Shown here: one piece after another, positions 1 to 50,271 of the stretch | How the letters are laid out: every line of letters begins with the position of its first letter | Position numbering within the stretch: the stretch's first letter is position 1 | NCBI RefSeq assembly: GCF_964275005.1 | Contig: NW_027307661.1 | Location: 62,001 to 126,000 of the forward strand | Direction: 5' to 3' | Source: Diadema setosum | Taxonomy: Eukaryota; Echinodermata; Echinoidea; Diadematoida; Diadematidae | DNA length: 64,000 bases | Made by a program: the position numbers and the translations under genes | Notes under the pieces: model-generated | What the model was told of the DNA's origin: nothing | Databases searched by the model: none | What the model saw: only the letters and a program-made list of their open reading frames with translations

Positions 1-26
1 GTTCACGTACTCAATGAAACACTCAC

Positions 27-174
27 CACATAACTCCTTGTTTTTCCAGCTACAGAAGAGCAAATGCACGTCAAGGAGATTGGCACTGTCTTGTTGAAGT
101 ATGGCTTGGCAATGGGTGGACTGATAGTCTCCCTCTGAATGTCGATCAATTCCCCAGCTGATGCATTTCTTGAG
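27..174 (-). pseudogene. Open exon of G1 with weak death-fold resemblance
   Basis: Mirror of 26333-26480, described there. It is a 148-nt open segment between ATGAATTAG and GTGAGTG. The G2 copy of this exon (about 9474-9621) has in-frame stops. Confidence 0.3.
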
Positions 175-595
175 CTAATTCATGGTAATAAACACAAGAG
201 TCAACCTTTCATAACTTGATTACACTCAACTTCAGCACAGTGGCAGGTGACAGATCACACCCCCCCCCCACAACAACAACAAATAAAATACTAAACCCAG
301 GACAATGATATTCCCTGAAAGTATGAAATAGTCAACATCCCCAAGCATCTGTGACTTGAAGGCCTGAAATTCATCAAACAAATCATATTTGTAGGGGTTT
401 TAGTGCCCTCAAGCACTCAATAAAGGAGCCTGAAGAGAGAGTAATGTCTCAACCTCATTCACACACTTTGAGTCATTTCTATCAAGAATATTATTTTCAA
501 TGAGGTAATATTCAGTAAACATCACATCACAAAATGTCTGCATATGAAATTTCAGAGTTCATATGCTGATTCATTAAACACTATACATGTACATG

Positions 596-636
596 AGTAC
601 ATGAGAATGTAATGTGCATTACATTCTCACGTACTG
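596..636. repeat. Short perfect-like hairpin
   Basis: GTACATGAGAATGTAAT pairs with ATTACATTCTCACGTAC around a 2-4 nt turn. Copies are near 10074-10114, 25870-25912 and 44048-44090. It lies in an intron-like part of the gene unit; no function is visible. Confidence 0.7.
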
Positions 637-3200
637 CAACTATGCCTTAAACCCATAAACTGCACACATGAAATTTGTAAACATGTATGCATTTCTGTCA
701 CAAGATTTGAAAATTGGTATTTGCTTAATTCATGCCTATGAGAGATTACCAACTGGAAAGTGAAAACTTAATGTAAGCATGTACTTGTGTATTTCTTATT
801 ATTTTTTAAAAAATTTAATTCATTATCATTCATACAACATAAAGTTTTGACTGAATCTTAACACAAGTAATAAACAATACTGAGTGGCTAACTCTTCCAC
901 ACAAGAAAAATCTTATGGTGTAACAACAGTTCATATTTCCAGGGAGATGGGACTCACTATTGCAGGTTTCACTTTTGACCTATTTCTCTGGTAAAGGTGT
1001 CAAAAGGTGGTAAAAACAAACGAAGAAAAAAATGTTATCTCAAATGTTAAACTGTTTCTTACACTGTAGCTGTTTGCTCTGAACAGAAATATCCTCCCAT
1101 ATTCCATGTACAAGAACCCTGAACCTCGTGTAAATTTACAGTTTTACTTACTGTATAAATTCATTAGAAATTGTGACTCATAATACATTATATCAGTTGA
1201 TGTACTTGATGACATACTCACCACTTAGCTACTTGCTTTTCTAGATTTTAATGAGCAAAACACACATGAGGAAGATTGGCAATGTCTGGGTGAAGCATGG
1301 ACTGACAGTCTTCCTCTCAAGTCATGTCAATACAGTCCCAGGCACTTCTTGAGCTACATCATGGTGATAAGACACAATAAAAACTTTGATAATTCGATTG
1401 GACACAACTTCAGGACAGTGGTAAATGACAGATCACAACCCTTTGCCCAAACAAAAAAAATAACAATCACTGTGGAAACTGAAATTCCATGAAAGTATGA
1501 AATAGTCAACATCCTCAGACAGCAACAACTTGACGTCCCAAAAATCATAAAGGGAAAGGATTTTGAGGAGTTAAGTGATTTAGAATAAGGGTAAAAGAAC
1601 TAGATTAACCTTACAAAGTAGCATTCAAGGTTTATTGGCTTTGACTTGTGCCTACTGACTTAAGGATCACACACTACTCAGTCAACCTGAGTGAAAAAGA
1701 AAAGCTTGTTTGCTTGCCAATAACCGTCTATGATCACCTGTCATATGACATTTTTGTGTGAGTGGGAGAGGGTTGTGGGGAGAAGGAATGATCACAGATT
1801 GTTTTGTTACGAGAAATAGGAATGGGAAAGTGAAATGTGATGACCAAGAGGAGTATGATATTAGTTACTGACCAATGATAAACTTCCAATTGGGACACAC
1901 ATACATAATACCTCTACATTCATATCCACATTAGATATTCTGCAGACACAACATACTGTTTATAGTTTAAGAACTGATTCAGCCAGCAAAGTGAAGAAAA
2001 ATAAAACATGTTACAAATATGCCACCTGACAGAAATTTGAACACCTCAAGATCCAATTTCATCATCTTGTGAGTAAATGCAGTTCACTGTATATTTTGAT
2101 TTTCTGATTTTTCCTTTTTAATGGCATACATATTGGTAACACACTAACAACTGTTGTCAGCCCAAGATATCTTTAACATTTATCTTATCTTTTCTGACAT
2201 GACGTACTGCTGCTATGGTCCAGGCTAACATCACAATCTTCTTTGACTTTATTACAGCAAAGTGGTTCCCAACCCTTTCTAACGTATTGATTTTAACTTC
2301 ACATTTTTTAAAATGTGATCATACACAGCCATGTCGCTGTAAATGAAGTTGCGATGCCATATAATGCTTTGCACGGCGTCTGTTCAGGCTAGTGATCAGT
2401 AAAATAGTCTAGGCTAGGAAGATTACAGTGCTTATCAATAGATATTCTTTGCCTAAGAATTCAAAACATAAGTGAACTGGGGGGGGGGGGAGTAACGTGG
2501 CCCATGTGCATTGTATGTCATTAATTATGTGAAAATAAGCAATGTGTGAAGAATTAAAAAAAAAACAAAATATTATGCCTTTGCTAGTAATACAGTATGC
2601 TGGGGAAATACTCCATGTCTATTACATTCGTGTTCCACGAATCTCCAACGTACTGATCAACATACCTATATCATACTATATATACATGGATTCTATGATT
2701 CCAAAATATTACAGAATGACTATCCCAGTGACCTGTCATTAGCCAATTTTCCATGTCCAACCATATATACGGCCAACATAATTTGTACTGGTGCCTCTGT
2801 TCCTTTTAATCATTGTTTAGCCTTGCATTGACTATAATTTTCAAGTCTCACCTTAAATATGCACTTTACAAATTTGATAATTTTCAGAATTATGGGGGTA
2901 AATAGAGGTCTACTACGTATAGATTCCACTGTACTGTCCAATTAGTCTTTTGCATACTCTTATACTGTATGAGTGTAACGTTAAACAGAATAGACTCTAG
3001 CAATATTTAGGCATATTCCTAGTCCTACTTGTTCACAATAAGTAGGTCTAACGCTAGGTCTACTAGTCTATTTATAGGAGCCTACTATTAGTACAAAATA
3101 AGGCGCTAATGTAGTTTGGTTCTGTGTAATTATTGAGATTTGGTCATGGATACGACGGTAGATCATCAGCGTCTATAGTATAACCCACAAGGCCACATAT

Positions 3201-3332
3201 TCATTCATGGCAATCACGACGGGCGCGCTCCCCCAGAGCTTCGGCGGGCCACTCCGTCAGGAAAAGTGAAAGTACAACTACTACAAGGCTGGAACTTGGA
3301 AGACGGACAAGTCGAGTAATTTTGGAGGGCAT
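3201..3332 (-). pseudogene. Signal-peptide-like first coding exon of G1
   Basis: Forty-three codons beginning MPSKITRLVRLP, then a hydrophobic stretch LVVVVLSLFL and a possible cleavage region WPAEA before LGERARRDCHE and a TGA. G3 has TGG at the position of this TGA and continues. Relative to G3 the frame differs by 6 nt and 3 nt, both whole codons, which suggests past selection on the reading frame. A secreted or membrane protein is the inference; the family is not recognised. Confidence 0.4.
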
Positions 3333-3768
3333 TTTCTAATCGTGTACCTACAGTTTTCCTGTTAACTGCAGTTCTGTATGACATGAGACACATTAGTGTA
3401 GTAGACAAATAGTTTGTATTGCTATTAATCAATATCAAAAAATCAAATGAACTTACTGTCACAGAGGGGTGCAATTCAATGTCGAGTACATTCAGAGTAG
3501 GCCTAGCTAGGTCGGATACTTCGCGTGCGGTGCGGTACAGCGTACGTCTACATTCTTCAATGGGCATGCAGTCTGCCACAGCCAACGTTAGCTTACTGTA
3601 TATCATATGAAAGGTAATTTATTGTCAATGGTGATGAAAATTATAAAAAGGCACGATTTGTAACAATGATAGATAAAAGATAATGATAATGTACTGTTGT
3701 CTGTAGACTGACTACTAAAGTATAGACCTGTATTACAATTTTTATTTTATTATTTTTTTAAAGGATAT

Positions 3769-4206
3769 AAAGCCTTGCGCACGGCTAACTTTCCAGTAGC
3801 CTGGCGGCCCGTTAGGGTACACTTGACTACGTGTAGTAACAAGCCGTTACGTGTGCCTACACCTCGCGTAACGCGTGGTGGAGTATGGCAAGCCGTTCGG
3901 GTCAATGCGTCAGGTAACTACACGTACCTCGAAACACCTACGCGTGCCTGACCACACGTAACGTGTGGGTACACGTCACGTTACGTGTACCCACACGTCA
4001 CGTAACGTGTACTTAAGCACGCGTAACGCGACGCGTGGGTACACGTTACGCGACGTGTACCCTGGCGTAACGCGTGGTTGTACCTGGCGCTACACGTAGT
4101 CCACCACGCGTTACGCGTGGGGTAGGCACACGTAACGTCAGGTTGACTACACGTAGTCAAGTGTACACGACGCCACGCCAGGCTCCTGAAAAATTAGCCT
4201 TGTTTC
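3769..4206. mobile_element. GC-rich foldback (hairpin) element HP1, recombinant
   Basis: A CpG-rich inverted repeat in AT-rich surroundings. The outer arms read GGCTAACTTTCCAG on the left and CTGAAAAATTAGCC on the right. Inside are short palindromes such as CACACGTAACGTGTG and TACACGTTACG. The flanking heptamer AGGATAT is present on both sides (3762-3768 and 4207-4213) and may be a target-site duplication. No coding capacity. The P/Q junction at 3884-3885 is inside it, and the halves do not match each other as well as those of HP2. Superfamily unknown. Confidence 0.8.
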
Positions 4207-4244
4207 AGGATATGTTTTTGTTTTTTAATCTGCTATAGTCGATC

Positions 4245-4346
4245 CGTGTCTAAATATTTTTAATGAGCTGAGATATCTTGTGTAGGGGAAAAACACGTGT
4301 CTAAATAATTTTGATGAGCTGAGATATCTTGTGTAGGGGAAGAATA
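4245..4346. repeat. 51-bp tandem duplication in the 3' flank of G2
   Basis: Two adjacent copies of a 51-bp segment starting CGTGTCTAAATA and containing GAGCTGAGATATCTTG. The G3 flank near 13870-13920 has one copy, the G1' flank near 30760-30850 has two. The Q' mirror is at about 49809-49910. Confidence 0.85.
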
Positions 4347-4950
4347 TCTAAGTTACGGAATTATGATTCATTATTTCATTTTTAATGAGAGTGTTTTGTT
4401 TTTTTACTTTGTGTCTGCTAAAATGAAATCGATACTTTTTAGTGTAGTCTGTTGACTTTTAATGAATAGGCCTATGGCGTTAATTTCACGGATTATGATT
4501 TTTGTGATTGTTTCTTATTTTTTCTTATGTTATATATCCTATATGTGTAGGCATTTGTTTCATGTTACTTTCATTTGTTTTTACCGCTTCTTCAGTATAC
4601 TGTTCTTCAGTATCACTTTGCACTGATCATTACAGTACCTGTACAGTATTTGGTCCACATAATAGTGATGAACATAGATGCCAGTTACGTTATTGTTTAA
4701 TTTAGGTCGTTGGCTGAGCAATTAAATTCTTCCTTTTCAACCACAACTGGAAACTGATTGTTTGAGGAGAAAATGAAACAACCGGAGAGGGTCAGTTTAG
4801 CCACAGAGAGAGAGAAAAAAAAAACAGGAAAAAGAAAGGGAGAGGGAGATCGGAAAGGAGAGGAGAGGAGAGAAGAGAGCTTGTGGAGCAGAAAAAGGCA
4901 GAGAAAATTTGAGCTGCTAAACACTGATGGACACAGTCACTCACACCTTA

Positions 4951-5000
4951 CATACACACATAAACACACACACATACACACACACACACACACACAAACG
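4951..5000. repeat. CA/CACATA microsatellite
   Basis: Runs of CACA with interruptions. Diverged-length copies are at 14509-14553, 30100-30145, 39608-39655 and 49155-49205. Open frames across them are low-complexity. Confidence 0.9.
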
Positions 5001-6013
5001 ATCACATACATACAATTCAGTTTTTTCTATAACTTTATTACTACTTTCACTTTTAACTTGTGGATCTATGGAATATGGAATTTATCAGAATAATTTGCCA
5101 GTTTCCAAAGATTCCCCCTTTTATCTACCTTGCTCTTTATCACAACCACAAGCATCAGATAACCATCATCTGTCATTCATGCAATCATTTCGGCTCACAA
5201 CAACAAAACAATTGTTTTCCCATCAAATTTTACAATTTTTTGTTTTGAGAATCATATTTTCAATGAAATCACAATTTTAATTATGTAATGCACATATCAA
5301 TAAAATACAGTAATGCACTTGCCGCCATGGTCCATATGCTCATGCCACTTCTAGTATGTACCAATGAACATGCTTCTGCTTCTTGGCCCAATTTCAGTTA
5401 TATGTATTACAGTGTGTACTTGAAATGTTGGTTTTGTTGCAATAACCTAATACAAGGCTGAACATTATCCTTGGTCTAGGGACAACAGTAAGAGATAAAC
5501 GGGTCACTGAAAATTTGTGAGCATTTCCATTGTTCCTATATGTCTTCCTTGCCTAGAAAATGGAAGAAGATCTCACGGCTCACTAATTGCATGTATTTGA
5601 GCTATCGTCACGTGATGTCAGATCACCATTACTCTTCACAGCTATTGAAAGTTATTTCTAAATTGCTTTGTTACAGTCATTGTGTGCATATTGCAGTCTG
5701 TAAACAGTGAAGGATAAACATATCACTCAAGGAACCTGGCATACCATTGCATTGTTCCCCAAAATCATCCAATTGGAAACAATGAAAACAAACATATTTT
5801 GAGAATGAAAGTATTCATTAGCACCACCAAACAAAATCTGGTGAAATTTTGTCACAGCTCTTAACCTTGCGACAAATGTCCATATCTGCGACAACTTTTA
5901 CTCATTAATCAAACTGCTATACTTCTGCATTGAAAACCTTTTTACTAGTATTTGTGCAGTGGTTGTTTACTTTTCTTTTAAAGTTTGAATGTATCCGACA
6001 TAAGCTATCTATA

Positions 6014-6014
6014 T

Positions 6015-6066
<52 letters not shown>
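6014..6066. repeat. (AC)n(AT)n microsatellite beside a MITE
   Basis: CA repeats followed by about 18 AT units, ending 20 bp before the MITE at 6087. Related tracts are at 15528-15582, 29095-29136, 38590-38635 and 48088-48140. Confidence 0.9.
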
Positions 6067-6072
<6 letters not shown>

Positions 6073-6086
6073 GAAATATAGATATG

Positions 6087-6256
6087 CAGTGGCGGATCTA
6101 GGGGGGCGCAAATGGCCCACACCACCCCCCCCCCCTTTATTTTAGGTTAAAAACAAAAGATATAAAAAGAAAAAAAAATGAAATGAAACCTGGAAGTGGC
6201 ACCAGGAATATTAGTTGCCCCCCCCCCCCTTTACAGAATTTCTGGATCCACCCCTG
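6087..6256. mobile_element. MITE with CAGTGGCGGATC ends (hAT-like TIRs), in G2
   Basis: A 170-bp element with terminal inverted repeats CAGTGGCGGATCTAG and CTGGATCCACCCCTG, poly-C tracts and no coding capacity. Ends beginning CAGGGG are known from hAT elements. An 8-bp target duplication is not clear here because the flanks are TA-rich. Confidence 0.7.
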
Positions 6257-7212
6257 ATATGTATATTGACACATACATACACGCACATATACTAGTAAAC
6301 ATTCTTATTCACATATGTCATTTGTTATCTGTGGCTTTCACCATGTAAAAGACACTTTCACGGTCTGCATATTTGATGCGGTCACACCATTAATCATAAA
6401 AGCACATGATTTCATATACTATATGAGAAATGCATTATGCCCCACTAAAATCTACTTGTTGCAAAACAATCATCTTGTCCTTTTCATACTGAATGCTTGT
6501 ATACATTTTACACTGTAGACCAAGAACAAAGCTCCGTGCACAATCACCATTTTATACACCGTCCCTTTAGTTAATGCTCTCAAAGTGAAAGAAATTGTCA
6601 GTTTTGAGTTATGTTAAAGAGTAAATTCCAGAATGAAAGCACATTGTAAATTTGAAAAGGCAGATATTGAAAATGCATGCCTTGCTGAGTTTTGAAGAGC
6701 CAGTCATCTTATCTTACTCCTCAGAGATAACATGAAAGAGTTGTTTAATGTAAAATAGCAGAGCATGTGAATAAGTGCTAAAAATGAGATTATTTGCAAT
6801 ACCTCTAGGACAGTTGGAATTTCAGAACTGCAGTACACGATTTCAGTTGCAGAGACCAACAACAACAACAACAACAACAGAAATCGATATTGACCTGCTA
6901 TTGTGATGAGTTGCATGGTCAGATTATTCAATATAAGGAGCCATTACTGTCACTAAACTCTCAAGAAATGTTGAAACTAAGGCTCCCATTTCTGTGCATC
7001 AAGATGCCGTGGACATAGGGCACGGTTAAGTGATGAGATCATTTCTTGCCACAGAAATGAACAAAGCATGGCTCTGTAACATATATTCTATGTGGATGCT
7101 CCACACCAGTGCTTGACTACTGGCTTAACCACACAAAGAATGACATTGTGCCTCATCATCTGTGTACTGTACAAAGAATGAGCTCTTCCAGAAGGGAAAT
7201 ATCCACAAGTTT

Positions 7213-7377
7213 CTAATTGAAATCATAGTCAAGCACCAATACTTCGATGAGTTGTGATGAATTTGTGAGTGTTGCAGCCTCTGACCACTGTCTGCTCATG
7301 ACTTTCTTCCCTTGCTTGCAGAGAGTGATGACCCCGGCAGCCTGATGAAATGTCTTCAGAAAGATTACTGCCTTCTT
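7213..7377 (-). pseudogene. Late exon-like segment of G2 (unknown domain)
   Basis: Contains KQGKKVMSRQWSEAATLTNS, nearly the same as the G3 segment. It has two 3-nt insertions relative to G3 (HQAAG for YQAG, and VLVLD for VLVD) before the frame ends at a TAG. The gain of whole codons only, in the matching part, supports former coding. Domain family not recognised. Confidence 0.35.
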
Positions 7378-7629
7378 TTATCTCCACTGACTGTCGACAG
7401 CGAGCTACTCATCCTTTGCGTGCTTAAATAGTACCACCTTCCAACTTCAAGCTTGCCGAGTATGATGATTGAGTCAACTGAGTTATACCTTCATAAGAGA
7501 CAAGAAATTTCAGAAAAAGAAAGTGGACAAAGAAAATGAGATTATACTTCACACATAAAACATCTCCCAAGAATCTAACATGAGTCTTGTGTTAAGATAT
7601 ATGCACTGAGATGTTAACCTCCCCATATT

Positions 7630-7672
7630 AAAGAAAACAAACAAACAAACAAACAAACAAACAAACAAACAG
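7630..7672. repeat. (CAAA)n microsatellite in G2
   Basis: About ten CAAA units, against four shorter ones in G3 (17111-17130). The mirror is at 46484-46526. Confidence 0.9.
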
Positions 7673-7825
7673 GAAGATTTGACATAGCAAACATGAAGAC
7701 TCTTGTGAAGGCCTATTTCATGCATTACAATACGCCAAAAGACATCTGAATTATGTAGACTGCTGTAGTCGATCATTATCAGAAAATGAAGAAAATTTCC
7801 ATTTTTTAAGGAAAGTGAGACTTAA

Positions 7826-8294
7826 AGGGGACCTCCGGATGATTTTCAGACTTTTACATTTGAACAGCTATAAATCAGTTAAACTGAGTACAGAATTTCA
7901 GAATTTATAGTGATTGGGATAAGGAATGAGAATGTTTTCAAAATTTATAACAAATTGCAATGAACAAGGATGATGACATGCCAGCCTCACCATAAGCATG
8001 ATAAGAATGCATGAGTTGGGGCTCAAGGAAGCAGAACAAAAGAAGAAGGCATGCATAGATTTTTCACAGGTGAACTTGTTGAGCAAGTGGTATTGTAATG
8101 GAATTACACTGCTACATTTATGAAATATATGAGGCTCTGATGTCATCAACACTGTTCAGTGTAATTTGTTTAAGATTTTCAATTTATTGGTTTCTCTGCT
8201 CAAGGACCACAATAAATTCCACGAATCTATACATGGAGCTGTTGATTTATGTACTTCATGATGTGAAATTATGAAAATCGTCCGGAATGTCCCT
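7826..8294. mobile_element. TTAA-flanked MITE in G2
   Basis: A 469-bp element between TTAA at 7822-7825 and 8295-8298. The ends are AGGGGACCTCCGGATGATTT and the inverted AGGGACATTCCGGACGATTT. G3 (17283-17286) and G1' (27665-27668) have a single TTAA at this site, so the insertion happened in G2 after the units separated. TTAA targets are used by piggyBac and Kolobok transposases; which one moved this is not known. No coding capacity. Confidence 0.85.
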
Positions 8295-10919
8295 TTAATA
8301 TGAGATGATGTCTGATCTCTTTATACACAGAATATGAAATTTAAAAAAAAATGTCCTTTCAATGGAGTGAATTATTATCTATAATCAAACTGCATTGCAA
8401 AATTCCTGCCTATGAACTGCCATAAAGTTTTATGTTCTCATCATTATGTTATGCATTATTATTCTTATGTATTGTAAATATGTCTGTGCAGCTCTGCATT
8501 CATTTGTAGACACGTGTGCATTTTTGCCACCATATATCTGTAATTAATATTTGCTTACCAATACCTATTGTGAGAATACCAATTGGGAAGTAAAAATTGG
8601 CATACACATGTTCTTGTGAGTTTGTTTGTGTGTGAATTCATTAAAATTGTGTGATACATTTCTATTAAGCGTTGTACAATCATTCAATCATATTTCAACA
8701 GTTTAATGTACATGTATATGGCTTTCACAATATCTTACGATCAATAATAAACAATTACTAAGTGGCTAAATTCTTGTCTGCAAGACATGTCCAGTGCTCC
8801 AATAACATAATGTTGATATCAGTGCAAGTTTTTTATTTCTTAATTGGTTAAGACACCAATAGCTGCTTTTAAAAAAATAATAATTTCAAATGTCAAACTG
8901 ACACTAGCTGGTGTTCTTGCATGACATACGCAAGAACCCAGAATATGATATAAAGCATTGCTTTTAACCCTCACTATAAGCTGTCGAGGAGGGGGCTGGA
9001 AGGTCCCCCTCGGCATTCCTAGCAATGTCGTCTTCGCAGAAAAACTGTGGCTGTGATGTTTCACAACTTCTTCATTTCAAGTGTCTGTCGCATTCTCCCT
9101 ATAGAGACCAAATTTTAGACACCCAGGAGGAAATTGCATATAAAATATATGTACATGCATGTCAGACCAAGATATGCTCGAAAACGTGGTACAGTTGCAA
9201 TGAAATTTGTGCTTTCAGTCAAATTTCACAACAGCATGATTATTTTTTCTTTTCTTGATTAAAATCAATGAATAACATCTTTTCATGCTCCGAATACTGT
9301 CAACTACAAATTGCAATCGCACTGTTGAGATCTGGAAGGGGGAGGGGGCCTGGGAGGAGCCTAACTAAGATTACCTCCATCCCTCCCTTCCCCCTCTTTT
9401 ATCTTCCTAAACAGTTGAGGTTAATACAATGATAGTAGTTTGGATGAGTTCACGTACTCAGTGAAACACTCACCACATAACTCCTTGTTTTTCCAGCTAC
9501 AGAAGAGCAAATTGCATGTCAAGAAGATTGGCACTGTCTTGTTGCAGCGTAGCTTGGCAATGGGTGGACTGATAGTCTCCCTCTTAATGTCGATCAATTC
9601 CCCAGCTGATGCATTTCTTCAGCTAATTCATGGTAATAAACACAAGAGTCAACCTTTCATAACTTGATTGTACAGTGGCAGGTGACAGATCAACCCCCTT
9701 CCCCCCCCCCCCCCCCAACACAACAACAAATAAAACACTAAACCCAGGACAATGAAATTCCCTGAAAGTATGAAATAGTCAACATCCCCAAGCATCTATG
9801 ACTTGAAGGCCTGAAATTCATCAAACAAATCATATTTGTAGGGGTTTTAGTGCACTCTACGAAAGCACTCAATAAAGGAGCCTGAACATGAAAAGGAGCC
9901 TGAAGATGTAGTAATGTCTCAACCTCATTCACACACTATGATTCATTACTGTCAAGAATATCATTTTAAACGAGGTAAGTTGATATTCAGTAAACATCAC
10001 ATCACAAAATGTCTGCGTATGAACTTTCATAAAGTTCATATGCTGATTCATTCCACACAATGCATGTGCATGAGTACATGAGAATGTAATGTGCATTTCA
10101 TTCTCATGTACTGCAACTATGCCTTAAACCCATTTAAACTGCGCACATGAAATTTGTAAACATGTGTGCATTTCTGTCACCAGATTTGCAAATTGATATT
10201 TGCTTAATTCATGCCTACTGCGAGATTACCAACTGGAAAGTGAAAACTTAATGTAGGCATATACTTGTGTATTCCTTATTATTTCTTATATTTTAATTTA
10301 TTACTATTCCTACAATATAAAGTTTTGACTGAATCCTTACACAAGTCACAAACAATACTGAGTGGCTAACTCTCCCACACAAGACAAATCTCATGGTGTA
10401 ACAACTTACAGTTGACATTTCCAGGGAGGTGGGACTCAGTATTGCAGGCTTGGCTTTTGATCCATTTCTTTGGTAAAGGCACCAAAAGGTGCTAAAAAAA
10501 AAGAAATTAAAAAAAATTATCTCAAATGTTAAACTGATTCTTACACTGTAGCTGTTTGCTCTGAACAGAAACATCCTCCCATATTCTATGTACAAGAACC
10601 CTGAACCTCGTAAAAATACAGTTTTACCTACTGTATAACTTCATTAGAAATTGTGATTCATGATACATTATAGCGGTTGATGTACTTGATGATATACTCA
10701 CCACTAAGCTATCACTTGCTTTTCCAGATTTTAATGAGCAAAACACACATCGGTAAGATTGGCACTGTCTGGGTGAAGCATGGACTGACAGTCTTCCTCT
10801 CAATTCATGTCAATACAGTCCCAGTCACTTCTTGAGCTACATCATGGTGATAAGACACAACATTAACTTTGATAATTTGATTGTACACAACTTCAGGACA
10901 GTGGTAAATGGCAGATCAC

Positions 10920-10970
10920 AACCCTTTGCCCCCCCCCCCCAAAAAAAAAACAAAAAACAAAACAAAAACA

Positions 10971-11002
<32 letters not shown>
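10920..11002. repeat. C-run, A-run and (CAA)n tract in G2
   Basis: Poly-C, poly-A, CAAAA and about ten CAA units in succession. The mirror at 43158-43235 has different run lengths, one of the few arm differences. G1 has only a short tract here (1445-1460). Confidence 0.9.
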
Positions 11003-11004
<2 letters not shown>

Positions 11005-12819
11005 CACTGTGGAAACTGAAATTCAATGAAAATATGAAAAAGTCAAGATCCTCAGACAGCAATAACTTGACGTCCAAAAAATTCATCAAGGCAAAGGATT
11101 TTGAGGAGTTAAGTGATTTAGAATAAGGGTAAAAGATCTAGATTAACCTTACAAAGTAGCATTCAAGGTTTATTGGCTTTGACTTGTGCCCACTGACTTA
11201 AGGATCACACACTACTCAGTCAACCTGAATGAAAAAGAAAAGCTTGTTTACTTGCCCATAACCGTCTATGATCACCTGTCATATGACATTTTTGTGTGAG
11301 TGGGAGAGGGTTGTGGGGAGAAGGAATGATCACATATTGTTTTGTTACGAGAAATAGGAATGGGAAAGTGAAATGTGATGACCAAGAGGAGTATGATATT
11401 AGTTACTGACCAATGATAAACTTCCAATTGGGACACACATACATAATACCTCTACATTCATATCCACATTAGATATTCTGCAGACACAACATACTGTTTA
11501 TAGTTTAAGAACTGATTCAGTCAGCAAAGTGAAGAAAAATAAAACATGTTACATATATGCCACCTGACAGAAATTTGAACACCTCAAGATCAAATTTCCT
11601 CATCTTTGAGTAAATGAAGTTCACTGTATATTTTAATTTTTTGATTTTTCCTTTTTTATGGCATACATATTGGTAATACACTAATAACTGTTGTCAGCCC
11701 AAGATATCATTGTATTTATCTTATCTTTTCTGAAATGATATACTGCTGCTATGGTCCAGGCTGACATCACAATCTTTCTTTGACTTTATTACAGCAAAGT
11801 GGTTCCCAACCCTTTCTAATGTATTGATTTTAACTTCACATTTTTTTTATGTGATCATACACAGCCATGTCGCTGTAAATGAAGTTGCGATGCCATATAT
11901 GCTCTGCACGGCGTCTGTTCAGGCTAGTGATCAGTAAAATAGTCTAGTCTAGGAAGATTACAGTGCTTATCAATACATATTCTTTGCCTAAGAATTCAAA
12001 ACATAAGAGAACTGGGGGGGGGGGAGTAACGTGCCCCATGTGCATTGTATGTCATTATGTGAAGATAAGCAATGTGTGAAGAATTAAAAAAAAAAAGCAA
12101 AATATTATGCCTTTGCTAGTATGCTGGGGAAATACTCCATGTCTATCAGTTGATAATTAAATTGTTCTGCTGTTCCAAGAATCCCCAACGTACTGATCAA
12201 CATACCTATATCATACATATTTACATATATATGCATGGATTCCATGATCATGGAAATTAGCAAAAAAGAAAAAAAAATCACAGAATGACTATCCCAATGA
12301 CCTGTCAATTTTCCATGTCCAACCATAGATGGCCAACATAATCTGTACCGGTGCCTCTGTTCCTTTTCATCATTGTTTGGCCTTGCATTGACTATAATTT
12401 TCAAGTCTCACCTTAATATGCACTTTACAAATTTGATAATTTTGAGAATTATGAGGGTAAATACTAGGTATAGATTTTACTGTACTGTCTAATTTGTCTT
12501 TTGCTTACTGTCGTACGTCAAACATGTAGATCTAACGTTACATTGTAATACACTTGCTGAAAATAGAATAACAATATTTAGGCCTATTCCTACTTGTTCA
12601 CAATAAGTAGGTCTAGGTCTATTTATATAGGAGCCTACTACAGTACTAGTACAAAATAAGGCGCTGATGTAGTTTGGTTCTGTGTAATTATTGAGATTTG
12701 GTCATGGATACGACGGTACATCATCAGCGCCTATACCTATACACAACCCACAAGGCCACATATCCATTCATGGCAATCACGACGGGCGTGCTCCCCCAGA
12801 GCTTCGGCGGGCTACACAG

Positions 12820-14517: not shown

Positions 14518-14556
<39 letters not shown>

Positions 14557-29092: not shown

Positions 29093-29137
<45 letters not shown>

Positions 29138-37500: not shown

Positions 37501-38396
37501 TACACAGATGATGAGGCACAATGTCATTCTTTGTGTGGTTAAGCCAGTAGTCAAGGAATGGTGTGGAGCATCCGCATAGAACATATGTTACAGCGCCATG
37601 CTTTGTTCATTTCTGTGGCAAGAAATGATCTCATCACTTAACTGTGCCCTATGTCCAGGGTATGTTGATGCACAGGAATGGGAGCCTTAGTTTCAACATT
37701 TCTTGAGAGTTAAATGACGGTAATGGCTCCTTATATTGAATAATCTGACCATGCAACTAATCACAATAGCAGGTCAATATCGATTTCTGTTGTTGTTGTT
37801 GGTCTCTGCAAATGAAATCGTATGCTGCGATTCTAAAACTCCAACTGTCCTAGAGGTATTGCAAATAATTTCATTTTTAGCACTTATTCACATGCTCTGC
37901 TATTTTACATTAAACAACTCTTTCATGCCATCTCTGAGGAGTAACATAAGATGTTTGGCTCTTCAAAACTCAGCAAGGCATGCATTCTCATTATCTGCCT
38001 TTTCAAATTTACGATGTGCTTTCATTCTGGAATTTACTCTTTAATATAACTAAAAACTGACAACTTCTTTCACTTTGAGAGCATTAACTAAAGGGACGGT
38101 GTATGAAATGGTGATTGTGTACGCAGCTTTGTTCTTAGTCTACAGTGTAAAATGTATACAAGCATTCAGTATGAAAAGGACAAGATGACTGTTTTGCAAC
38201 AAGTAGAATTTGGTGGGGCATAATGCATTTCTCATATACTAGTAGTATAATGAAATCATGTGCTTTAATGACTAATGGTGTGACTGCATGAAATATGCAG
38301 ACTGTGACAAATGTGCTTTTTACATGGTGAAAGCCACAGATAACAAGTGAATAAGAATGTATATATGTGCATGTATGTATGTGTCAATATACATAT

Positions 38397-38567
38397 CAGG
38401 GATGGATCCAGGAATTCTGTAAAAAAGGGGGGGGGGCACAACTAATATTCCTGGTGCCAATTCCAGGTTTCATTTCACTTTTTTCTATTTATATCTTTTG
38501 TTTTTAACGAAAAATAAAGGGGGGGGGGGGTGGTGTAGGCCAGTTGCGCCCCCTGGATCCGCCCCTG
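38397..38567. mobile_element. MITE (Q' copy of 15595-15765)
   Basis: Mirror of the G3 MITE with the same ends. Confidence 0.75.
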
Positions 38568-39605
38568 CATGTATCTATATTTTGTGTGTATATATATATA
38601 TATATATGTGTGCGTGTGTGTGTGTTTGTGTGTATATAGATAGCTTATGTTGGATACATTCAAACTTTAAAAGAAAAGTAAACAACCACTGCATAAATAC
38701 TAGTAAAAAGATTTTCAATGCAGAAGTATAGCAGATATGGACAATTGTCGCAAGGTTAAGAGCTGTGACAAAATTTCACCAGATTTTGTTTGGTGGCGCT
38801 AATGAATAGTTTTATTCTCCAAATATATGTTTGTTTTCATTGTTTCCAATTGGATGATTTTGGGGAACAATGCAATGGTGTGCCAGGTTCCTTGAGTGAC
38901 ATGTTTATCCTTCACTGTTTGCAGACTGCGATATGCACACAGTGACTGTAAGAAAGCAATTTAGAAATAACTTTCAATAACTGTGAAGAGTAATGGTGAT
39001 CTGCCAACACTTGACGATAGCTCAAATACATGCAATTAGTGAGCCGTGAGATCTTCTTCCATTTTCTAGGCAAGGAAGGCATGTAAGAACAATGGAAATG
39101 CTTACAAATTTTTAGTGACCCGTTCATCTATTACTGTTGTCCCTAGACCAAGGATAATGTGCAGCCTTGTATTAGGTTATTGCAACAAAACCAACATTTC
39201 AAGTACACATTGTAATACATATAACTGAAATTGGACCAAGAATCAGAAGCATGTTCATTGGTACATACTAGAAGTGGCATGAGTATATGGACCATGGCAG
39301 TAATTGCATTACTGTATTTTATTGATATGTGCATTACATAATTAAAATGGTGATTTTATTGAAAATATGATTCTCAAAACAAAACATTGTAAAATTTGAT
39401 GGGAGAACAATTGTTTTGTTGTTGTGAGTCGAAATGATTGCATGAAGGACAGATGATGGTTATCTGATGCATGTGATTGTGATAAAAAGGGGAATTTTGG
39501 AAACTGGCACATTTTTCTGATAGATTCCATATTCCATATAGATCCACAAGTTAAAGTGAAAGTAGTAATAAAGTAATATAAAAAACTGAATTGTATGTAT
39601 GTGAT

Positions 39606-39644
<39 letters not shown>

Positions 39645-40330
39645 ATGTGTGTATGTAAGGTGTGAGTGACTGTGTCCATCAGTGTGTAGCAGCTCAAATT
39701 TTCTCTGCCTTTCTCTGATCCAAGCTCCTCTCCTTTCCGATCTCCCTCTCCCTTTCTCTTTCCTGTTTTTTTTTTTCTCTCTCTGTGGCTAAACTGACAC
39801 TCTCCAGTTGTTTCATTTTCTCCTCAAACAATCAGTTTCCAGTTGTGGTTAAAAAGGAAGAATTTAATTGCTCAGCCAATGACCTAAATTAAACAATAAC
39901 GTAACTGGCATCTATGTTCATCACCATTATGTAGACCAACAGGTACTACTGTAATGATCAGTGCAAAGTAATACTGAAGAATAGTATACTGAAGAAGTGG
40001 TAAAAACAAATGAAAGTAACATGACACAAAAGTCTACACATATAGGATATATAACAAGAAAAAATAAGAAACAATCACAAAAATCATAATCTGTGAAATC
40101 AACACCATAGGCTTATTCATTAAAAGTCAACAGACTACAATACAAAGTATCAATTTCATTTTAGCAAACACAAAGTAAAAAAAAAAAAACACTCTAATTC
40201 CAAATGAAATAATGAAATCATAATTCCATAACTTAGATATTCATCCCCTACACAAGATATCTCAGCTCATCAAAAATATTTTTTCACGTATCGACTATAG
40301 CAGATTAAAAAAATATATATATCCTGAAAC

Positions 40331-40832
40331 AAGGCTAATTTTTCAGGGGCCTGGCGTGGCGTCGTGTACACTTGACTACGTGTAGTCAACCTGACGTTAC
40401 GTGTGCCTACCCCACGCGTAACGCGTGGTGGACTACGCGTAGCGCCAGGTACAACCACACGTTACGCCAGGGTACACGTCGCGTAACGTGTACCCACACG
40501 TCGCGTAACGCGTACCCACACCACACGTAACGTGTGGTGTGGGTACGCGTAACGCCAGGTCGGGCTCGCCTATGGGTTTTGCACAGTGAAGCCTGACCTG
40601 GCGTTACGCGTACCCACACCACACGTTACGTGTGGTGTGGGCACGCGTTACGCGACGTGTGGGTACACGTTACGCGACGTGTACCCTGGCGTAACGTGTG
40701 GTTGTACCTGGCGCTACACGTAGTCCACCACGCGTTACGCGAGGTGCAGGCACACGTAACGTCAGGTTAACTACACGTAGTCAAGTGTACACGACGCCAC
40801 GCCAGGCTACTGGAAAGTTAGCCGTGCGTAAG
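40331..40832. mobile_element. GC-rich foldback element (Q' copy of HP2)
   Basis: Reverse-complement copy of HP2. It lies between the 3' end of G3' and the 5' end of G2'. Confidence 0.85.
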
Positions 40833-41283
40833 GCTTATAGCCTTTTAAAAAATAATAAAATGAAAATTGTAATACAGGTCTATACTTTAGTAGTCAGTCT
40901 ACAGACAACAGTACATTATCATAATCTTTTATCTATCATTCTTACAAATCGTGCCTTATTATCATTTTTATCACCATTGACAAATTACCTTTCATATGAA
41001 ATAAGCTAACGTTGGCTGTGGCGGACTAGACTGCCGATTGAAGACACGTATAACGTAACTACAGAGAGACGTATGGCAGGATTGTACCGCACGAATTGCG
41101 GAGTAACGGATCTACTCTGAGTGTACTCGACATTGCACCCTTCTGTGACAGTAAGTTCATTTGATTATTTTTCGCCCATGATATTGATTAATAGCAATAC
41201 AAACTATTGGTCTACCACACTAATGTGTCTCATGTCATACAGAATTGCAGTTAATACGAAAACTGTAGGTACACGATTAGAAA

Positions 41284-41343
41284 ATGCACTCCAAAATTGC
41301 TCGACTTGTCCGTCTTCCAGCCCTGTACTTTCACTTTTCCTGA
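41284..41343 (+). pseudogene. Frameshifted signal-peptide exon of G2'
   Basis: Same as 12820-12879: MHSKIARLVRLPAL, then a shifted frame and a stop. Confidence 0.4.
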
Positions 41344-43157
41344 CTGTGTAGCCCGCCGAAGCTCTGGGGGAGCACGCCCGTCGTGATTGCCATGAATGGA
41401 TATGTGGCCTTGTGGGTTGTGTATAGGTATAGGCGCTGATGATGTACCGTCGTATCCATGACCAAATCTCAATAATTACACAGAACCAAACTACATCAGC
41501 GCCTTATTTTGTACTAGTACTGTAGTAGGCTCCTATATAAATAGACCTAGACCTACTTATTGTGAACAAGTAGGAATAGGCCTAAATATTGTTATTCTAT
41601 TTTCAGCAAGTGTATTACAATGTAACGTTAGATCTACATGTTTGACGTACGACAGTAAGCAAAAGACAAATTAGACAGTACAGTAAAATCTATACCTAGT
41701 ATTTACCCTCATAATTCTCAAAATTATCAAATTTGTAAAGTGCATATTAAGGTGAGACTTGAAAATTATAGTCAATGCAAGGCCAAACAATGATGAAAAG
41801 GAACAGAGGCACCGGTACAGATTATGTTGGCCATCTATGGTTGGACATGGAAAATTGACAGGTCATTGGGATAGTCATTCTGTGATTTTTTTTTCTTTTT
41901 TGCTAATTTCCATGATCATGGAATCCATGCATATATATGTAAATATGTATGATATAGGTATGTTGATCAGTACGTTGGGGATTCTTGGAACAGCAGAACA
42001 ATTTAATTATCAACTGATAGACATGGAGTATTTCCCCAGCATACTAGCAAAGGCATAATATTTTGCTTTTTTTTTTTAATTCTTCACACATTGCTTATCT
42101 TCACATAATGACATACAATGCACATGGGGCACGTTACTCCCCCCCCCCAGTTCTCTTATGTTTTGAATTCTTAGGCAAAGAATATGTATTGATAAGCACT
42201 GTAATCTTCCTAGACTAGACTATTTTACTGATCACTAGCCTGAACAGACGCCGTGCAGAGCATATATGGCATCGCAACTTCATTTACAGCGACATGGCTG
42301 TGTATGATCACATAAAAAAAATGTGAAGTTAAAATCAATACATTAGAAAGGGTTGGGAACCACTTTGCTGTAATAAAGTCAAAGAAAGATTGTGATGTCA
42401 GCCTGGACCATAGCAGCAGTATATCATTTCAGAAAAGATAAGATAAATACAATGATATCTTGGGCTGACAACAGTTATTAGTGTATTACCAATATGTATG
42501 CCATAAAAAAGGAAAAATCAAAAAATTAAAATATACAGTGAACTTCATTTACTCAAAGATGAGGAAATTTGATCTTGAGGTGTTCAAATTTCTGTCAGGT
42601 GGCATATATGTAACATGTTTTATTTTTCTTCACTTTGCTGACTGAATCAGTTCTTAAACTATAAACAGTATGTTGTGTCTGCAGAATATCTAATGTGGAT
42701 ATGAATGTAGAGGTATTATGTATGTGTGTCCCAATTGGAAGTTTATCATTGGTCAGTAACTAATATCATACTCCTCTTGGTCATCACATTTCACTTTCCC
42801 ATTCCTATTTCTCGTAACAAAACAATATGTGATCATTCCTTCTCCCCACAACCCTCTCCCACTCACACAAAAATGTCATATGACAGGTGATCATAGACGG
42901 TTATGGGCAAGTAAACAAGCTTTTCTTTTTCATTCAGGTTGACTGAGTAGTGTGTGATCCTTAAGTCAGTGGGCACAAGTCAAAGCCAATAAACCTTGAA
43001 TGCTACTTTGTAAGGTTAATCTAGATCTTTTACCCTTATTCTAAATCACTTAACTCCTCAAAATCCTTTGCCTTGATGAATTTTTTGGACGTCAAGTTAT
43101 TGCTGTCTGAGGATCTTGACTTTTTCATATTTTCATTGAATTTCAGTTTCCACAGTG

Positions 43158-43191
<34 letters not shown>

Positions 43192-45862
43192 TGTTTTTGT
43201 TTTGTTTTTTGTTTTTTTTTTGGGGGGGGGGCAAAGGGTTGTGATCTGCCATTTACCACTGTCCTGAAGTTGTGTACAATCAAATTATCAAAGTTAATGT
43301 TGTGTCTTATCACCATGATGTAGCTCAAGAAGTGACTGGGACTGTATTGACATGAATTGAGAGGAAGACTGTCAGTCCATGCTTCACCCAGACAGTGCCA
43401 ATCTTACCGATGTGTGTTTTGCTCATTAAAATCTGGAAAAGCAAGTGATAGCTTAGTGGTGAGTATATCATCAAGTACATCAACCGCTATAATGTATCAT
43501 GAATCACAATTTCTAATGAAGTTATACAGTAGGTAAAACTGTATTTTTACGAGGTTCAGGGTTCTTGTACATAGAATATGGGAGGATGTTTCTGTTCAGA
43601 GCAAACAGCTACAGTGTAAGAATCAGTTTAACATTTGAGATAATTTTTTTTAATTTCTTTTTTTTTAGCACCTTTTGGTGCCTTTACCAAAGAAATGGAT
43701 CAAAAGCCAAGCCTGCAATACTGAGTCCCACCTCCCTGGAAATGTCAACTGTAAGTTGTTACACCATGAGATTTGTCTTGTGTGGGAGAGTTAGCCACTC
43801 AGTATTGTTTGTGACTTGTGTAAGGATTCAGTCAAAACTTTATATTGTAGGAATAGTAATAAATTAAAATATAAGAAATAATAAGGAATACACAAGTATA
43901 TGCCTACATTAAGTTTTCACTTTCCAGTTGGTAATCTCGCAGTAGGCATGAATTAAGCAAATATCAATTTGCAAATCTGGTGACAGAAATGCACACATGT
44001 TTACAAATTTCATGTGCGCAGTTTAAATGGGTTTAAGGCATAGTTGCAGTACATGAGAATGAAATGCACATTACATTCTCATGTACTCATGCACATGCAT
44101 TGTGTGGAATGAATCAGCATATGAACTTTATGAAAGTTCATACGCAGACATTTTGTGATGTGATGTTTACTGAATATCAACTTACCTCGTTTAAAATGAT
44201 ATTCTTGACAGTAATGAATCATAGTGTGTGAATGAGGTTGAGACATTACTACATCTTCAGGCTCCTTTTCATGTTCAGGCTCCTTTATTGAGTGCTTTCG
44301 TAGAGTGCACTAAAACCCCTACAAATATGATTTGTTTGATGAATTTCAGGCCTTCAAGTCATAGATGCTTGGGGATGTTGACTATTTCATACTTTCAGGG
44401 AATTTCATTGTCCTGGGTTTAGTGTTTTATTTGTTGTTGTGTTGGGGGGGGGGGGGAAGGGGGTTGATCTGTCACCTGCCACTGTACAATCAAGTTATGA
44501 AAGGTTGACTCTTGTGTTTATTACCATGAATTAGCTGAAGAAATGCATCAGCTGGGGAATTGATCGACATTAAGAGGGAGACTATCAGTCCACCCATTGC
44601 CAAGCTACGCTGCAACAAGACAGTGCCAATCTTCTTGACATGCAATTTGCTCTTCTGTAGCTGGAAAAACAAGGAGTTATGTGGTGAGTGTTTCACTGAG
44701 TACGTGAACTCATCCAAACTACTATCATTGTATTAACCTCAACTGTTTAGGAAGATAAAAGAGGGGGAAGGGAGGGATGGAGGTAATCTTAGTTAGGCTC
44801 CTCCCAGGCCCCCTCCCCCTTCCAGATCTCAACAGTGCGATTGCAATTTGTAGTTGACAGTATTCGGAGCATGAAAAGATGTTATTCATTGATTTTAATC
44901 AAGAAAAGAAAAAATAATCATGCTGTTGTGAAATTTGACTGAAAGCACAAATTTCATTGCAACTGTACCACGTTTTCGAGCATATCTTGGTCTGACATGC
45001 ATGTACATATATTTTATATGCAATTTCCTCCTGGGTGTCTAAAATTTGGTCTCTATAGGGAGAATGCGACAGACACTTGAAATGAAGAAGTTGTGAAACA
45101 TCACAGCCACAGTTTTTCTGCGAAGACGACATTGCTAGGAATGCCGAGGGGGACCTTCCAGCCCCCTCCTCGACAGCTTATAGTGAGGGTTAAAAGCAAT
45201 GCTTTATATCATATTCTGGGTTCTTGCGTATGTCATGCAAGAACACCAGCTAGTGTCAGTTTGACATTTGAAATTATTATTTTTTTAAAAGCAGCTATTG
45301 GTGTCTTAACCAATTAAGAAATAAAAAACTTGCACTGATATCAACATTATGTTATTGGAGCACTGGACATGTCTTGCAGACAAGAATTTAGCCACTTAGT
45401 AATTGTTTATTATTGATCGTAAGATATTGTGAAAGCCATATACATGTACATTAAACTGTTGAAATATGATTGAATGATTGTACAACGCTTAATAGAAATG
45501 TATCACACAATTTTAATGAATTCACACACAAACAAACTCACAAGAACATGTGTATGCCAATTTTTACTTCCCAATTGGTATTCTCACAATAGGTATTGGT
45601 AAGCAAATATTAATTACAGATATATGGTGGCAAAAATGCACACGTGTCTACAAATGAATGCAGAGCTGCACAGACATATTTACAATACATAAGAATAATA
45701 ATGCATAACATAATGATGAGAACATAAAACTTTATGGCAGTTCATAGGCAGGAATTTTGCAATGCAGTTTGATTATAGATAATAATTCACTCCATTGAAA
45801 GGACATTTTTTTTTAAATTTCATATTCTGTGTATAAAGAGATCAGACATCATCTCATATTAA

Positions 45863-46331
45863 AGGGACATTCCGGACGATTTTCATAATTTCACATCATG
45901 AAGTACATAAATCAACAGCTCCATGTATAGATTCGTGGAATTTATTGTGGTCCTTGAGCAGAGAAACCAATAAATTGAAAATCTTAAACAAATTACACTG
46001 AACAGTGTTGATGACATCAGAGCCTCATATATTTCATAAATGTAGCAGTGTAATTCCATTACAATACCACTTGCTCAACAAGTTCACCTGTGAAAAATCT
46101 ATGCATGCCTTCTTCTTTTGTTCTGCTTCCTTGAGCCCCAACTCATGCATTCTTATCATGCTTATGGTGAGGCTGGCATGTCATCATCCTTGTTCATTGC
46201 AATTTGTTATAAATTTTGAAAACATTCTCATTCCTTATCCCAATCACTATAAATTCTGAAATTCTGTACTCAGTTTAACTGATTTATAGCTGTTCAAATG
46301 TAAAAGTCTGAAAATCATCCGGAGGTCCCCT
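45863..46331. mobile_element. TTAA-flanked MITE (Q' copy)
   Basis: Mirror of 7826-8294, with TTAA on both sides. Confidence 0.85.
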
Positions 46332-46779
46332 TTAAGTCTCACTTTCCTTAAAAAATGGAAATTTTCTTCATTTTCTGATAATGATCGACTACAGCAGTCT
46401 ACATAATTCAGATGTCTTTTGGCGTATTGTAATGCATGAAATAGGCCTTCACAAGAGTCTTCATGTTTGCTATGTCAAATCTTCCTGTTTGTTTGTTTGT
46501 TTGTTTGTTTGTTTGTTTGTTTTCTTTAATATGGGGAGGTTAACATCTCAGTGCATATATCTTAACACAAGACTCATGTTAGATTCTTGGGAGATGTTTT
46601 ATGTGTGAAGTATAATCTCATTTTCTTTGTCCACTTTCTTTTTCTGAAATTTCTTGTCTCTTATGAAGGTATAACTCAGTTGACTCAATCATCATACTCG
46701 GCAAGCTTGAAGTTGGAAGGTGGTACTATTTAAGCACGCAAAGGATGAGTAGCTCGCTGTCGACAGTCAGTGGAGATAA

Positions 46780-46944
46780 AAGAAGGCAGTAATCTTTCTG
46801 AAGACATTTCATCAGGCTGCCGGGGTCATCACTCTCTGCAAGCAAGGGAAGAAAGTCATGAGCAGACAGTGGTCAGAGGCTGCAACACTCACAAATTCAT
46901 CACAACTCATCGAAGTATTGGTGCTTGACTATGATTTCAATTAG
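46780..46944 (+). pseudogene. Late exon-like segment of G2'
   Basis: Same as 7213-7377. It carries the two whole-codon insertions relative to G3' and then a 4-nt length difference after the TAG. Confidence 0.35.
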
Positions 46945-47900
46945 AAACTTGTGGATATTTCCCTTCTGGAAGAGCTCATTCTTTGTACAGTACACAGATG
47001 ATGAGGCACAATGTCATTCTTTGTGTGGTTAAGCCAGTAGTCAAGCACTGGTGTGGAGCATCCACATAGAATATATGTTACAGAGCCATGCTTTGTTCAT
47101 TTCTGTGGCAAGAAATGATCTCATCACTTAACCGTGCCCTATGTCCACGGCATCTTGATGCACAGAAATGGGAGCCTTAGTTTCAACATTTCTTGAGAGT
47201 TTAGTGACAGTAATGGCTCCTTATATTGAATAATCTGACCATGCAACTCATCACAATAGCAGGTCAATATCGATTTCTGTTGTTGTTGTTGTTGTTGTTG
47301 GTCTCTGCAACTGAAATCGTGTACTGCAGTTCTGAAATTCCAACTGTCCTAGAGGTATTGCAAATAATCTCATTTTTAGCACTTATTCACATGCTCTGCT
47401 ATTTTACATTAAACAACTCTTTCATGTTATCTCTGAGGAGTAAGATAAGATGACTGGCTCTTCAAAACTCAGCAAGGCATGCATTTTCAATATCTGCCTT
47501 TTCAAATTTACAATGTGCTTTCATTCTGGAATTTACTCTTTAACATAACTCAAAACTGACAATTTCTTTCACTTTGAGAGCATTAACTAAAGGGACGGTG
47601 TATAAAATGGTGATTGTGCACGGAGCTTTGTTCTTGGTCTACAGTGTAAAATGTATACAAGCATTCAGTATGAAAAGGACAAGATGATTGTTTTGCAACA
47701 AGTAGATTTTAGTGGGGCATAATGCATTTCTCATATAGTATATGAAATCATGTGCTTTTATGATTAATGGTGTGACCGCATCAAATATGCAGACCGTGAA
47801 AGTGTCTTTTACATGGTGAAAGCCACAGATAACAAATGACATATGTGAATAAGAATGTTTACTAGTATATGTGCGTGTATGTATGTGTCAATATACATAT

Positions 47901-48068
47901 CAGGGGTGGATCCAGAAATTCTGTAAAGGGGGGGGGGGGCAACTAATATTCCTGGTGCCACTTCCAGGTTTCATTTCATTTTTTTTCTTTTTATATCTTT
48001 TGTTTTTAACCTAAAATAAAGGGGGGGGGGTGGTGTGGGCCATTTGCGCCCCCCTAGATCCGCCACTG
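47901..48068. mobile_element. MITE (Q' copy of 6087-6256)
   Basis: Mirror of the G2 MITE, two bases shorter because of C/G-run length. Confidence 0.7.
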
Positions 48069-48082
48069 CATATCTATATTTC

Positions 48083-48140
<58 letters not shown>

Positions 48141-49948
48141 ATATAGATAGCTTATGTCGGATACATTCAAACTTTAAAAGAAAAGTAAACAACCACTGCA
48201 CAAATACTAGTAAAAAGGTTTTCAATGCAGAAGTATAGCAGTTTGATTAATGAGTAAAAGTTGTCGCAGATATGGACATTTGTCGCAAGGTTAAGAGCTG
48301 TGACAAAATTTCACCAGATTTTGTTTGGTGGTGCTAATGAATACTTTCATTCTCAAAATATGTTTGTTTTCATTGTTTCCAATTGGATGATTTTGGGGAA
48401 CAATGCAATGGTATGCCAGGTTCCTTGAGTGATATGTTTATCCTTCACTGTTTACAGACTGCAATATGCACACAATGACTGTAACAAAGCAATTTAGAAA
48501 TAACTTTCAATAGCTGTGAAGAGTAATGGTGATCTGACATCACGTGACGATAGCTCAAATACATGCAATTAGTGAGCCGTGAGATCTTCTTCCATTTTCT
48601 AGGCAAGGAAGACATATAGGAACAATGGAAATGCTCACAAATTTTCAGTGACCCGTTTATCTCTTACTGTTGTCCCTAGACCAAGGATAATGTTCAGCCT
48701 TGTATTAGGTTATTGCAACAAAACCAACATTTCAAGTACACACTGTAATACATATAACTGAAATTGGGCCAAGAAGCAGAAGCATGTTCATTGGTACATA
48801 CTAGAAGTGGCATGAGCATATGGACCATGGCGGCAAGTGCATTACTGTATTTTATTGATATGTGCATTACATAATTAAAATTGTGATTTCATTGAAAATA
48901 TGATTCTCAAAACAAAAAATTGTAAAATTTGATGGGAAAACAATTGTTTTGTTGTTGTGAGCCGAAATGATTGCATGAATGACAGATGATGGTTATCTGA
49001 TGCTTGTGGTTGTGATAAAGAGCAAGGTAGATAAAAGGGGGAATCTTTGGAAACTGGCAAATTATTCTGATAAATTCCATATTCCATAGATCCACAAGTT
49101 AAAAGTGAAAGTAGTAATAAAGTTATAGAAAAAACTGAATTGTATGTATGTGATCGTTTGTGTGTGTGTGTGTGTGTGTATGTGTGTGTGTTTATGTGTG
49201 TATGTAAGGTGTGAGTGACTGTGTCCATCAGTGTTTAGCAGCTCAAATTTTCTCTGCCTTTTTCTGCTCCACAAGCTCTCTTCTCTCCTCTCCTCTCCTT
49301 TCCGATCTCCCTCTCCCTTTCTTTTTCCTGTTTTTTTTTTCTCTCTCTCTGTGGCTAAACTGACCCTCTCCGGTTGTTTCATTTTCTCCTCAAACAATCA
49401 GTTTCCAGTTGTGGTTGAAAAGGAAGAATTTAATTGCTCAGCCAACGACCTAAATTAAACAATAACGTAACTGGCATCTATGTTCATCACTATTATGTGG
49501 ACCAAATACTGTACAGGTACTGTAATGATCAGTGCAAAGTGATACTGAAGAACAGTATACTGAAGAAGCGGTAAAAACAAATGAAAGTAACATGAAACAA
49601 ATGCCTACACATATAGGATATATAACATAAGAAAAAATAAGAAACAATCACAAAAATCATAATCCGTGAAATTAACGCCATAGGCCTATTCATTAAAAGT
49701 CAACAGACTACACTAAAAAGTATCGATTTCATTTTAGCAGACACAAAGTAAAAAAACAAAACACTCTCATTAAAAATGAAATAATGAATCATAATTCCGT
49801 AACTTAGATATTCTTCCCCTACACAAGATATCTCAGCTCATCAAAATTATTTAGACACGTGTTTTTCCCCTACACAAGATATCTCAGCTCATTAAAAATA
49901 TTTAGACACGGATCGACTATAGCAGATTAAAAAACAAAAACATATCCT

Positions 49949-50271
49949 GAAACAAGGCTAATTTTTCAGGAGCCTGGCGTGGCGTCGTGTACACTTGACT
50001 ACGTGTAGTCAACCTGACGTTACGTGTGCCTACCCCACGCGTAACGCGTGGTGGACTACGTGTAGCGCCAGGTACAACCACGCGTTACGCCAGGGTACAC
50101 GTCGCGTAACGTGTACCCACGCGTCGCGTTACGCGTGCTTAAGTACACGTTACGTGACGTGTGGGTACACGTAACGTGACGTGTACCCACACGTTACGTG
50201 TGGTCAGGCACGCGTAGGTGTTTCGAGGTACGTGTAGTTACCTGACGCATTGACCCGAACGGCTTGCCATA
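49949..50271. mobile_element. Truncated foldback element (Q' copy of HP1) at the palindrome edge
   Basis: Mirror of 3884-4206. It keeps one arm and part of the inner repeats and stops at GGCTTGCCATA, where the single-copy right side of the window begins at 50272. Confidence 0.85.

Follow-up and report, generated by a model that had tools for sequence, protein, structure and literature searches.

The interlocked inverted repeats of the analyzed stretch of DNA—64,000 nucleotides, hereafter the window, corresponding to positions 62001-126000 of contig C35 in a genome of 912.7 Mb and 102 contigs—are almost certainly a nested transposon insertion, and a seemingly paradoxical interlocked palindrome is thereby reduced to one insertion.

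Nested insertion at C35

Self-BLAST of the window confirmed the order P Q P' Q' described in a sequence-only reading. Positions 1-3885 match 26506-22622 reversed at 100% and without gaps, and 3883-22629 match 50272-31533 reversed at 99.952%, with 0 mismatches and 6 gap openings; matches so long and so identical are far beyond chance. The same reading predicted that about 5 kb to the left of base 1 would be the reverse complement of 26507-31532, and C35:56984-62000 indeed matches it over its whole length. On the contig, the layout is A (C35:56984-65885), Q (C35:65883-84629), A' (C35:84622-93532) and Q' (C35:93533-112272). A and A' differ by 9 gap bases and no mismatch, and the limits of the mirrored region, C35:56984 and C35:112271, are both transposon ends.

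The inner element E (Table 1) and its outer reversed twin (C35:56984-112271), which is split by E, both begin with TATGGCAAGCC and terminate with GGCTTGCCATA, and each is flanked on either side by its own 6-bp duplication (GTGGAG and CAGACG, respectively). Since Q A' and A...Q' share the same ends and have their own duplications, Q A' constitutes a single transposon, E, of which A...Q' is a second copy, reversed and split. Neighboring blocks overlap by 2 bp (3884-3885) and by 8 bp (22622-22629), corresponding to the 6-bp target duplication plus TA, the TA being shared by chance between the start of the element and the host site. When E is skipped, one copy of the duplication dropped and 60 + 60 bp of host joined, the resulting 120 bp equal an uninterrupted site in the inner copy, which therefore holds the empty site. 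A single insertion of E (= Q P' R) into the reversed twin between A and Q' thus yields A [Q A'] Q', i.e., P Q P' Q'. Of the earlier interpretation, the geometry and the prediction for the left neighbor stand, whereas the requirement for at least two strand switches, or for recombination between inverted sites, is not supported, as one insertion gives the observed order.

Table 1. Features of the nested insertion in the window, and further insertions of the same family
Feature	Position	Strand	Remark
First piece A of outer reversed copy, right part	1-3883	-	outer copy starts at C35:56984, 5,017 bp before window position 1
Left 6-bp target duplication GTGGAG of inner element	3878-3883	.	
Inner element E, 27,649 bp, TATGGCAAGCC...GGCTTGCCATA	3884-31532	+	
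Left terminal domain (tip5), 22-bp CACGT-rich subrepeats	3884-4292	+	
Internal palindrome e1, ~495 bp, 92% self-complementary	13337-13830	.	two tips back to back
Internal palindrome e2	18521-19013	.	
Segment X	19023-22223	.	second copy within element not seen
Internal palindrome e3	22233-22727	.	inner element inserted into its outer-copy counterpart
Right terminal domain (tip3), 22-bp subrepeats	30796-31532	-	
Right 6-bp target duplication GTGGAG of inner element	31533-31538	.	
Remainder Q' of outer reversed copy, terminates GGCTTGCCATA	31533-50271	-	
Right 6-bp target duplication CAGACG of outer element	50272-50277	.	left partner C35:56978-56983
Insertion	C18:22231252-22258860		duplication GAACAC
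Insertion	C4:20767915-20805636		duplication TTATTG
Insertion	C4:46168189-46205460		duplication CGCATC
Insertion	C6:34600542-34700020		duplication ACAGTA
Nest	C4:20768412-20786887		duplication CGCGAC; within host's terminal repeat
Nest	C6:34637091-34699062		duplication GGTACA

In the proposed sequence of events, the outer copy would have inserted earlier into other DNA of C35, with the duplication CAGACG, and E, a large DNA transposon with terminal inverted repeats, would then have inserted in inverted orientation into palindrome e3 of this near-identical copy, giving rise to the target duplication GTGGAG. Mobilization would rely on a DDE transposase provided in trans; to judge from the TA..TA ends and 6-bp duplications, this enzyme is probably IS3EU/GingerRoot-like. 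The family may prefer to land in its own CACGT-rich repeats, perhaps as the transposase binds them.

The 6-bp target duplications at the inner and outer boundaries are the mark of insertion, and they bear directly on the idea that two strand switches, or an inversion by recombination between inverted palindromes, built the structure, which we regard as extremely improbable. The three self-complementary palindromes e1-e3 within the element are possible recombination substrates, and unpaired ends at C6 suggest a rearrangement there; however, at both boundary pairs at C35, perfect transposon ends are bordered by direct duplications of 6 bp, and such duplications are, to our knowledge, not a known product of homologous exchange or template switching. 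It is also very unlikely that the assembler passed twice through one element, an explanation that draws on the absence of any substitution between the 27.6-kb twins, on the fact that seven of their nine indels lie in long single-letter runs (typical of sequencing error), and on a family locus on C11 that terminates in a 100-N gap (C11:3225024-3225123). All six indels between Q and Q' fall in single-letter runs, while the three between A' and A are a difference in a C run, the presence or absence of the four bases ATTC, and CCCC versus CC. In the sequence examined, the ATTC site occurs at 11 distinct places and lacks ATTC solely in the outer copy; the CC/CCCC site occurs at five distinct places and has CCCC solely in the inner copy, although this too is a short run whose difference could come from sequencing error. 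That each twin has a private indel argues against a double walk of one sequence and makes an assembly-graph artefact appear unlikely; the coherent duplications at the four C35 junctions and two further nests with 6-bp duplications, on C4 and C6, likewise speak against it.

The near-identity of the twins could partly come from assembly, and we counted against nested insertion that the parts translated yielded no transposase, that three of the 12 end pairings tried fail, and that C35 is short (381 kb), as compared with the 37-49 Mb contigs carrying most other copies. With 0 substitutions over 27,649 bp, divergence is below ~1.1e-4 per base (95%), hence the nest is young. The possibility that C35 is a haplotig was rejected: in a search with 3 kb of each flank (best 40 candidates scored per flank), a whole-flank match was found at no other place among the matches listed, the fullest being C10:28464997-28467717, to which the right flank aligns in three pieces (85-95%), and the remaining ones interspersed repeats. 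For long-read assemblies, the nested insertion at C35 advises a check of target duplications before strand switching is invoked.

Composite structure of E and recurrent self-insertion

The tips of E, roughly 400 to 700 bp long, carry 22-bp CACGT-rich repeats, and the ~9-kb arm is present as U itself, in shortened form and reversed (U'). Palindromes e1-e3, ~495 bp each, correspond to two back-to-back tips minus their outer 95 bp; in e3, GTGGAG lies at 22629-22624 on the minus strand. Because back-to-back tips are what self-insertion leaves at an inner end, the composite E may record older nests that have since lost their inner ends.

A pattern search allowing at most 3 mismatches recovered 26 family ends in the whole genome, against 0 for the reversed-pattern control. 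By our reading, 11 of them adjoin the tip repeats of another copy (two on C35, two on C4, five on C6, one on C11 and one on C5) and 15 adjoin other DNA, one of the latter being a relic on C19. Exact 6-bp duplications, of nine different sequences, were found for nine of the 12 end pairings tried, six outside family DNA and three inside another copy (C35, C4 and C6); the failing pairings are two trials on C6 and a 221-bp element on C5. An independent single copy at C18:18048847-18078793, with its own duplication CGTAAC, aligns to the whole of E in three blocks, at identities of 98.96, 98.18 and 98.62%, between which lie ~2.0 and 0.3 kb of extra sequence. For the nests on C4 and C6, the empty site matches an uninterrupted tip of E over 200 bp without a gap, at 97.0% and 99.0%, respectively.

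The noteworthy part is this recurrent self-insertion: on several occasions a member has inserted into the end of another, which makes a family so rare a natural case for asking whether repeats that bind the transposase attract insertion. The family blocks listed sum to 295,716 bp, or 0.032% of the genome, and under uniform insertion the probability of at least three of nine falling inside the family is ~3e-9, a figure that assumes independent insertions and the present family size and cannot separate tip preference from local hopping. The evidence leaves evenly balanced the proposal that E is a self-homing transposon, for which the CACGT-rich repeats of its own tips are the preferred landing site: the family would grow largely by self-nesting, and nests that lose their inner ends would become composites (tip-U-e-U-e-X-e-U'-tip) jumping as units of ~28-37 kb and piling up to the 99.5-kb block at C6. 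A possible but rather doubtful source of the nests is local or sister-chromatid hopping, without preference for the family's own repeats; the C35 twins, devoid of substitutions, fit one as donor, or one recent donor for both. On the other hand, the inner 18.5 kb and the outer 19.2 kb (without the inner) at C4 are differently built, so that the inner is not a fresh host copy, a comparison made through E, to which each is 96-99% alike block by block, and not by direct mutual alignment. In addition, all three verified nests sit in tip or e repeats, which by our sum make up about a tenth of E. Relative to its host, the nested copy is inverted at C35 and runs in the same direction at C4; on a partial reading of the host, the direction at C6 seems to be the same as well.

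The C6 block, between ACAGTA flanks, carries stacked ends on both sides: three left ends within 476 bp and three right ends within ~960 bp. Partners were assigned for the outermost ends and for one inner pair; two trial pairings lack matching duplications. At C11:3216822-3225123, a copy begins 61 bp inside the tip stub of another copy, with the 100-N gap at 3225024. The 221-bp mini-element at C5:17838623-17838843 has an extra end inside and no matching 6-bp duplication, and is perhaps a collapsed nest. The C19 relic (C19:30589890-30590032) is a 143-bp degenerate remnant with similar ends.

Relation to known transposons

The closest precedent is the maize double Ds, in which one copy sits in reverse orientation within another, identical one and is flanked by a target duplication. 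The C35 nest is likewise an inverted, near-identical copy (nine small indels) with a target duplication, here with a nested element of 27.6 kb. Members of the hAT superfamily, to which Ac/Ds belongs, have 8-bp duplications and Ac-type ends, whereas the E family has 6-bp duplications and TATGGC ends. The TU elements of sea urchins also make 8-bp duplications. Helitrons are rolling-circle elements that leave no target duplication, and Polinton/Maverick elements carry polymerase, integrase and capsid genes.

According to the available part of PMC3260210, Ds elements that become nested acquire the ability to break chromosomes and selection would act against them; double Ds were not detected in B73. 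The E family thus raises the question of how genomes tolerate double-Ds-like, potentially chromosome-breaking structures. In Fusarium Helitrons, self-insertion leads to composite elements with several termini (PMC5148889, in the portion available); self-insertion is common to both, although the mechanism is different. An assignment of E to Polinton/Maverick was rejected, given no Pfam hit in the scanned frames, the 6-bp duplication (also that of Polintons in an excerpt of PMC10045372) being the sole fit.

According to that same excerpt of PMC10045372, TA..TA termini are invariable in complete IS3EU families, and their duplications are usually of 6 bp. Paired insertions of the E family resemble IS3EU/GingerRoot in their TA..TA termini (TATGGCAAGCC...GGCTTGCCATA) and in their exact 6-bp duplications at nine of 12 pairings. 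In contrast, the defining transposase was not found in the translated parts of E, and the excerpt, in its description of IS3EU/GingerRoot, mentions no elements of the size or foldback form of E. Foldback elements, whose hosts include a sea urchin (the element cited as Lieberman et al. 1983), are exemplified in the accessible text of PMC4079207 by Tetris of Drosophila virilis, with long inverted repeats containing tandem subrepeats, no apparent coding capacity and 8-10 bp duplications. E has this foldback form, with 22-bp subrepeats in tips and palindromes and inverted arms of ~9 kb, in contrast with its duplications of 6 bp. Taken from the TA..TA ends and 6-bp duplications, these features suggest that E is a non-autonomous, IS3EU-like and foldback-shaped element.

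Coding content and neighboring sequence

Six-frame translations of window 3884-13840 and 19000-22300 gave no Pfam match at E<=0.1; most of the remaining sequence of E repeats these parts, with identities of about 85-95%. Genome-wide, none of the 126 matches listed for rve_3 (best 150 of 809 candidates scored) or of the 150 listed for rve (best 150 of 1451) lies in a family locus. The family sequence read lies outside C6:34652501-34694029 and, for the most part, outside the interiors of C4:46168189-46205460 and C18:22231252-22258860. The C19 relic end, checked for an autonomous relative, has a longest open frame of 82 codons over 2.5 kb. Neither Rfam nor tRNA scans of the window gave a hit, and Pfam matched neither of two ORFs in the flank. 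One 3.5-kb piece against a phage collection and one 8-kb flank piece against a plasmid collection likewise returned nothing. As for the host, COX1 on C102 is read with TGA as W and carries AAA at four positions that translation table 9 (mitochondria of echinoderms and flatworms) renders as N (N36, N86, N157 and N201); its protein resembles COX1 of sea urchins, in which N is conserved at positions of this kind.

On the minus strand of C6:34604838-34608835, within the nested block, are open frames of 278, 312, 470 and 276 codons, which look like a LINE and would be a later passenger in the block. A 156-codon open frame in window 62869-63339 (minus strand), without a Pfam match, looks like the end of a LINE reverse transcriptase. 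Also outside the element are a 365-bp palindrome, 93% self-complementary (window 58640-59004), and a direct repeat, 93% identical, at window 59408-60106 and 63299-64000; on the contig, C35:121408-123607 matches C35:125299-127453 as a direct repeat. Finally, C35:132692-135259 is minisatellite-like, and each of its strands has long open frames that encode a TTGQYHR-type repeat.
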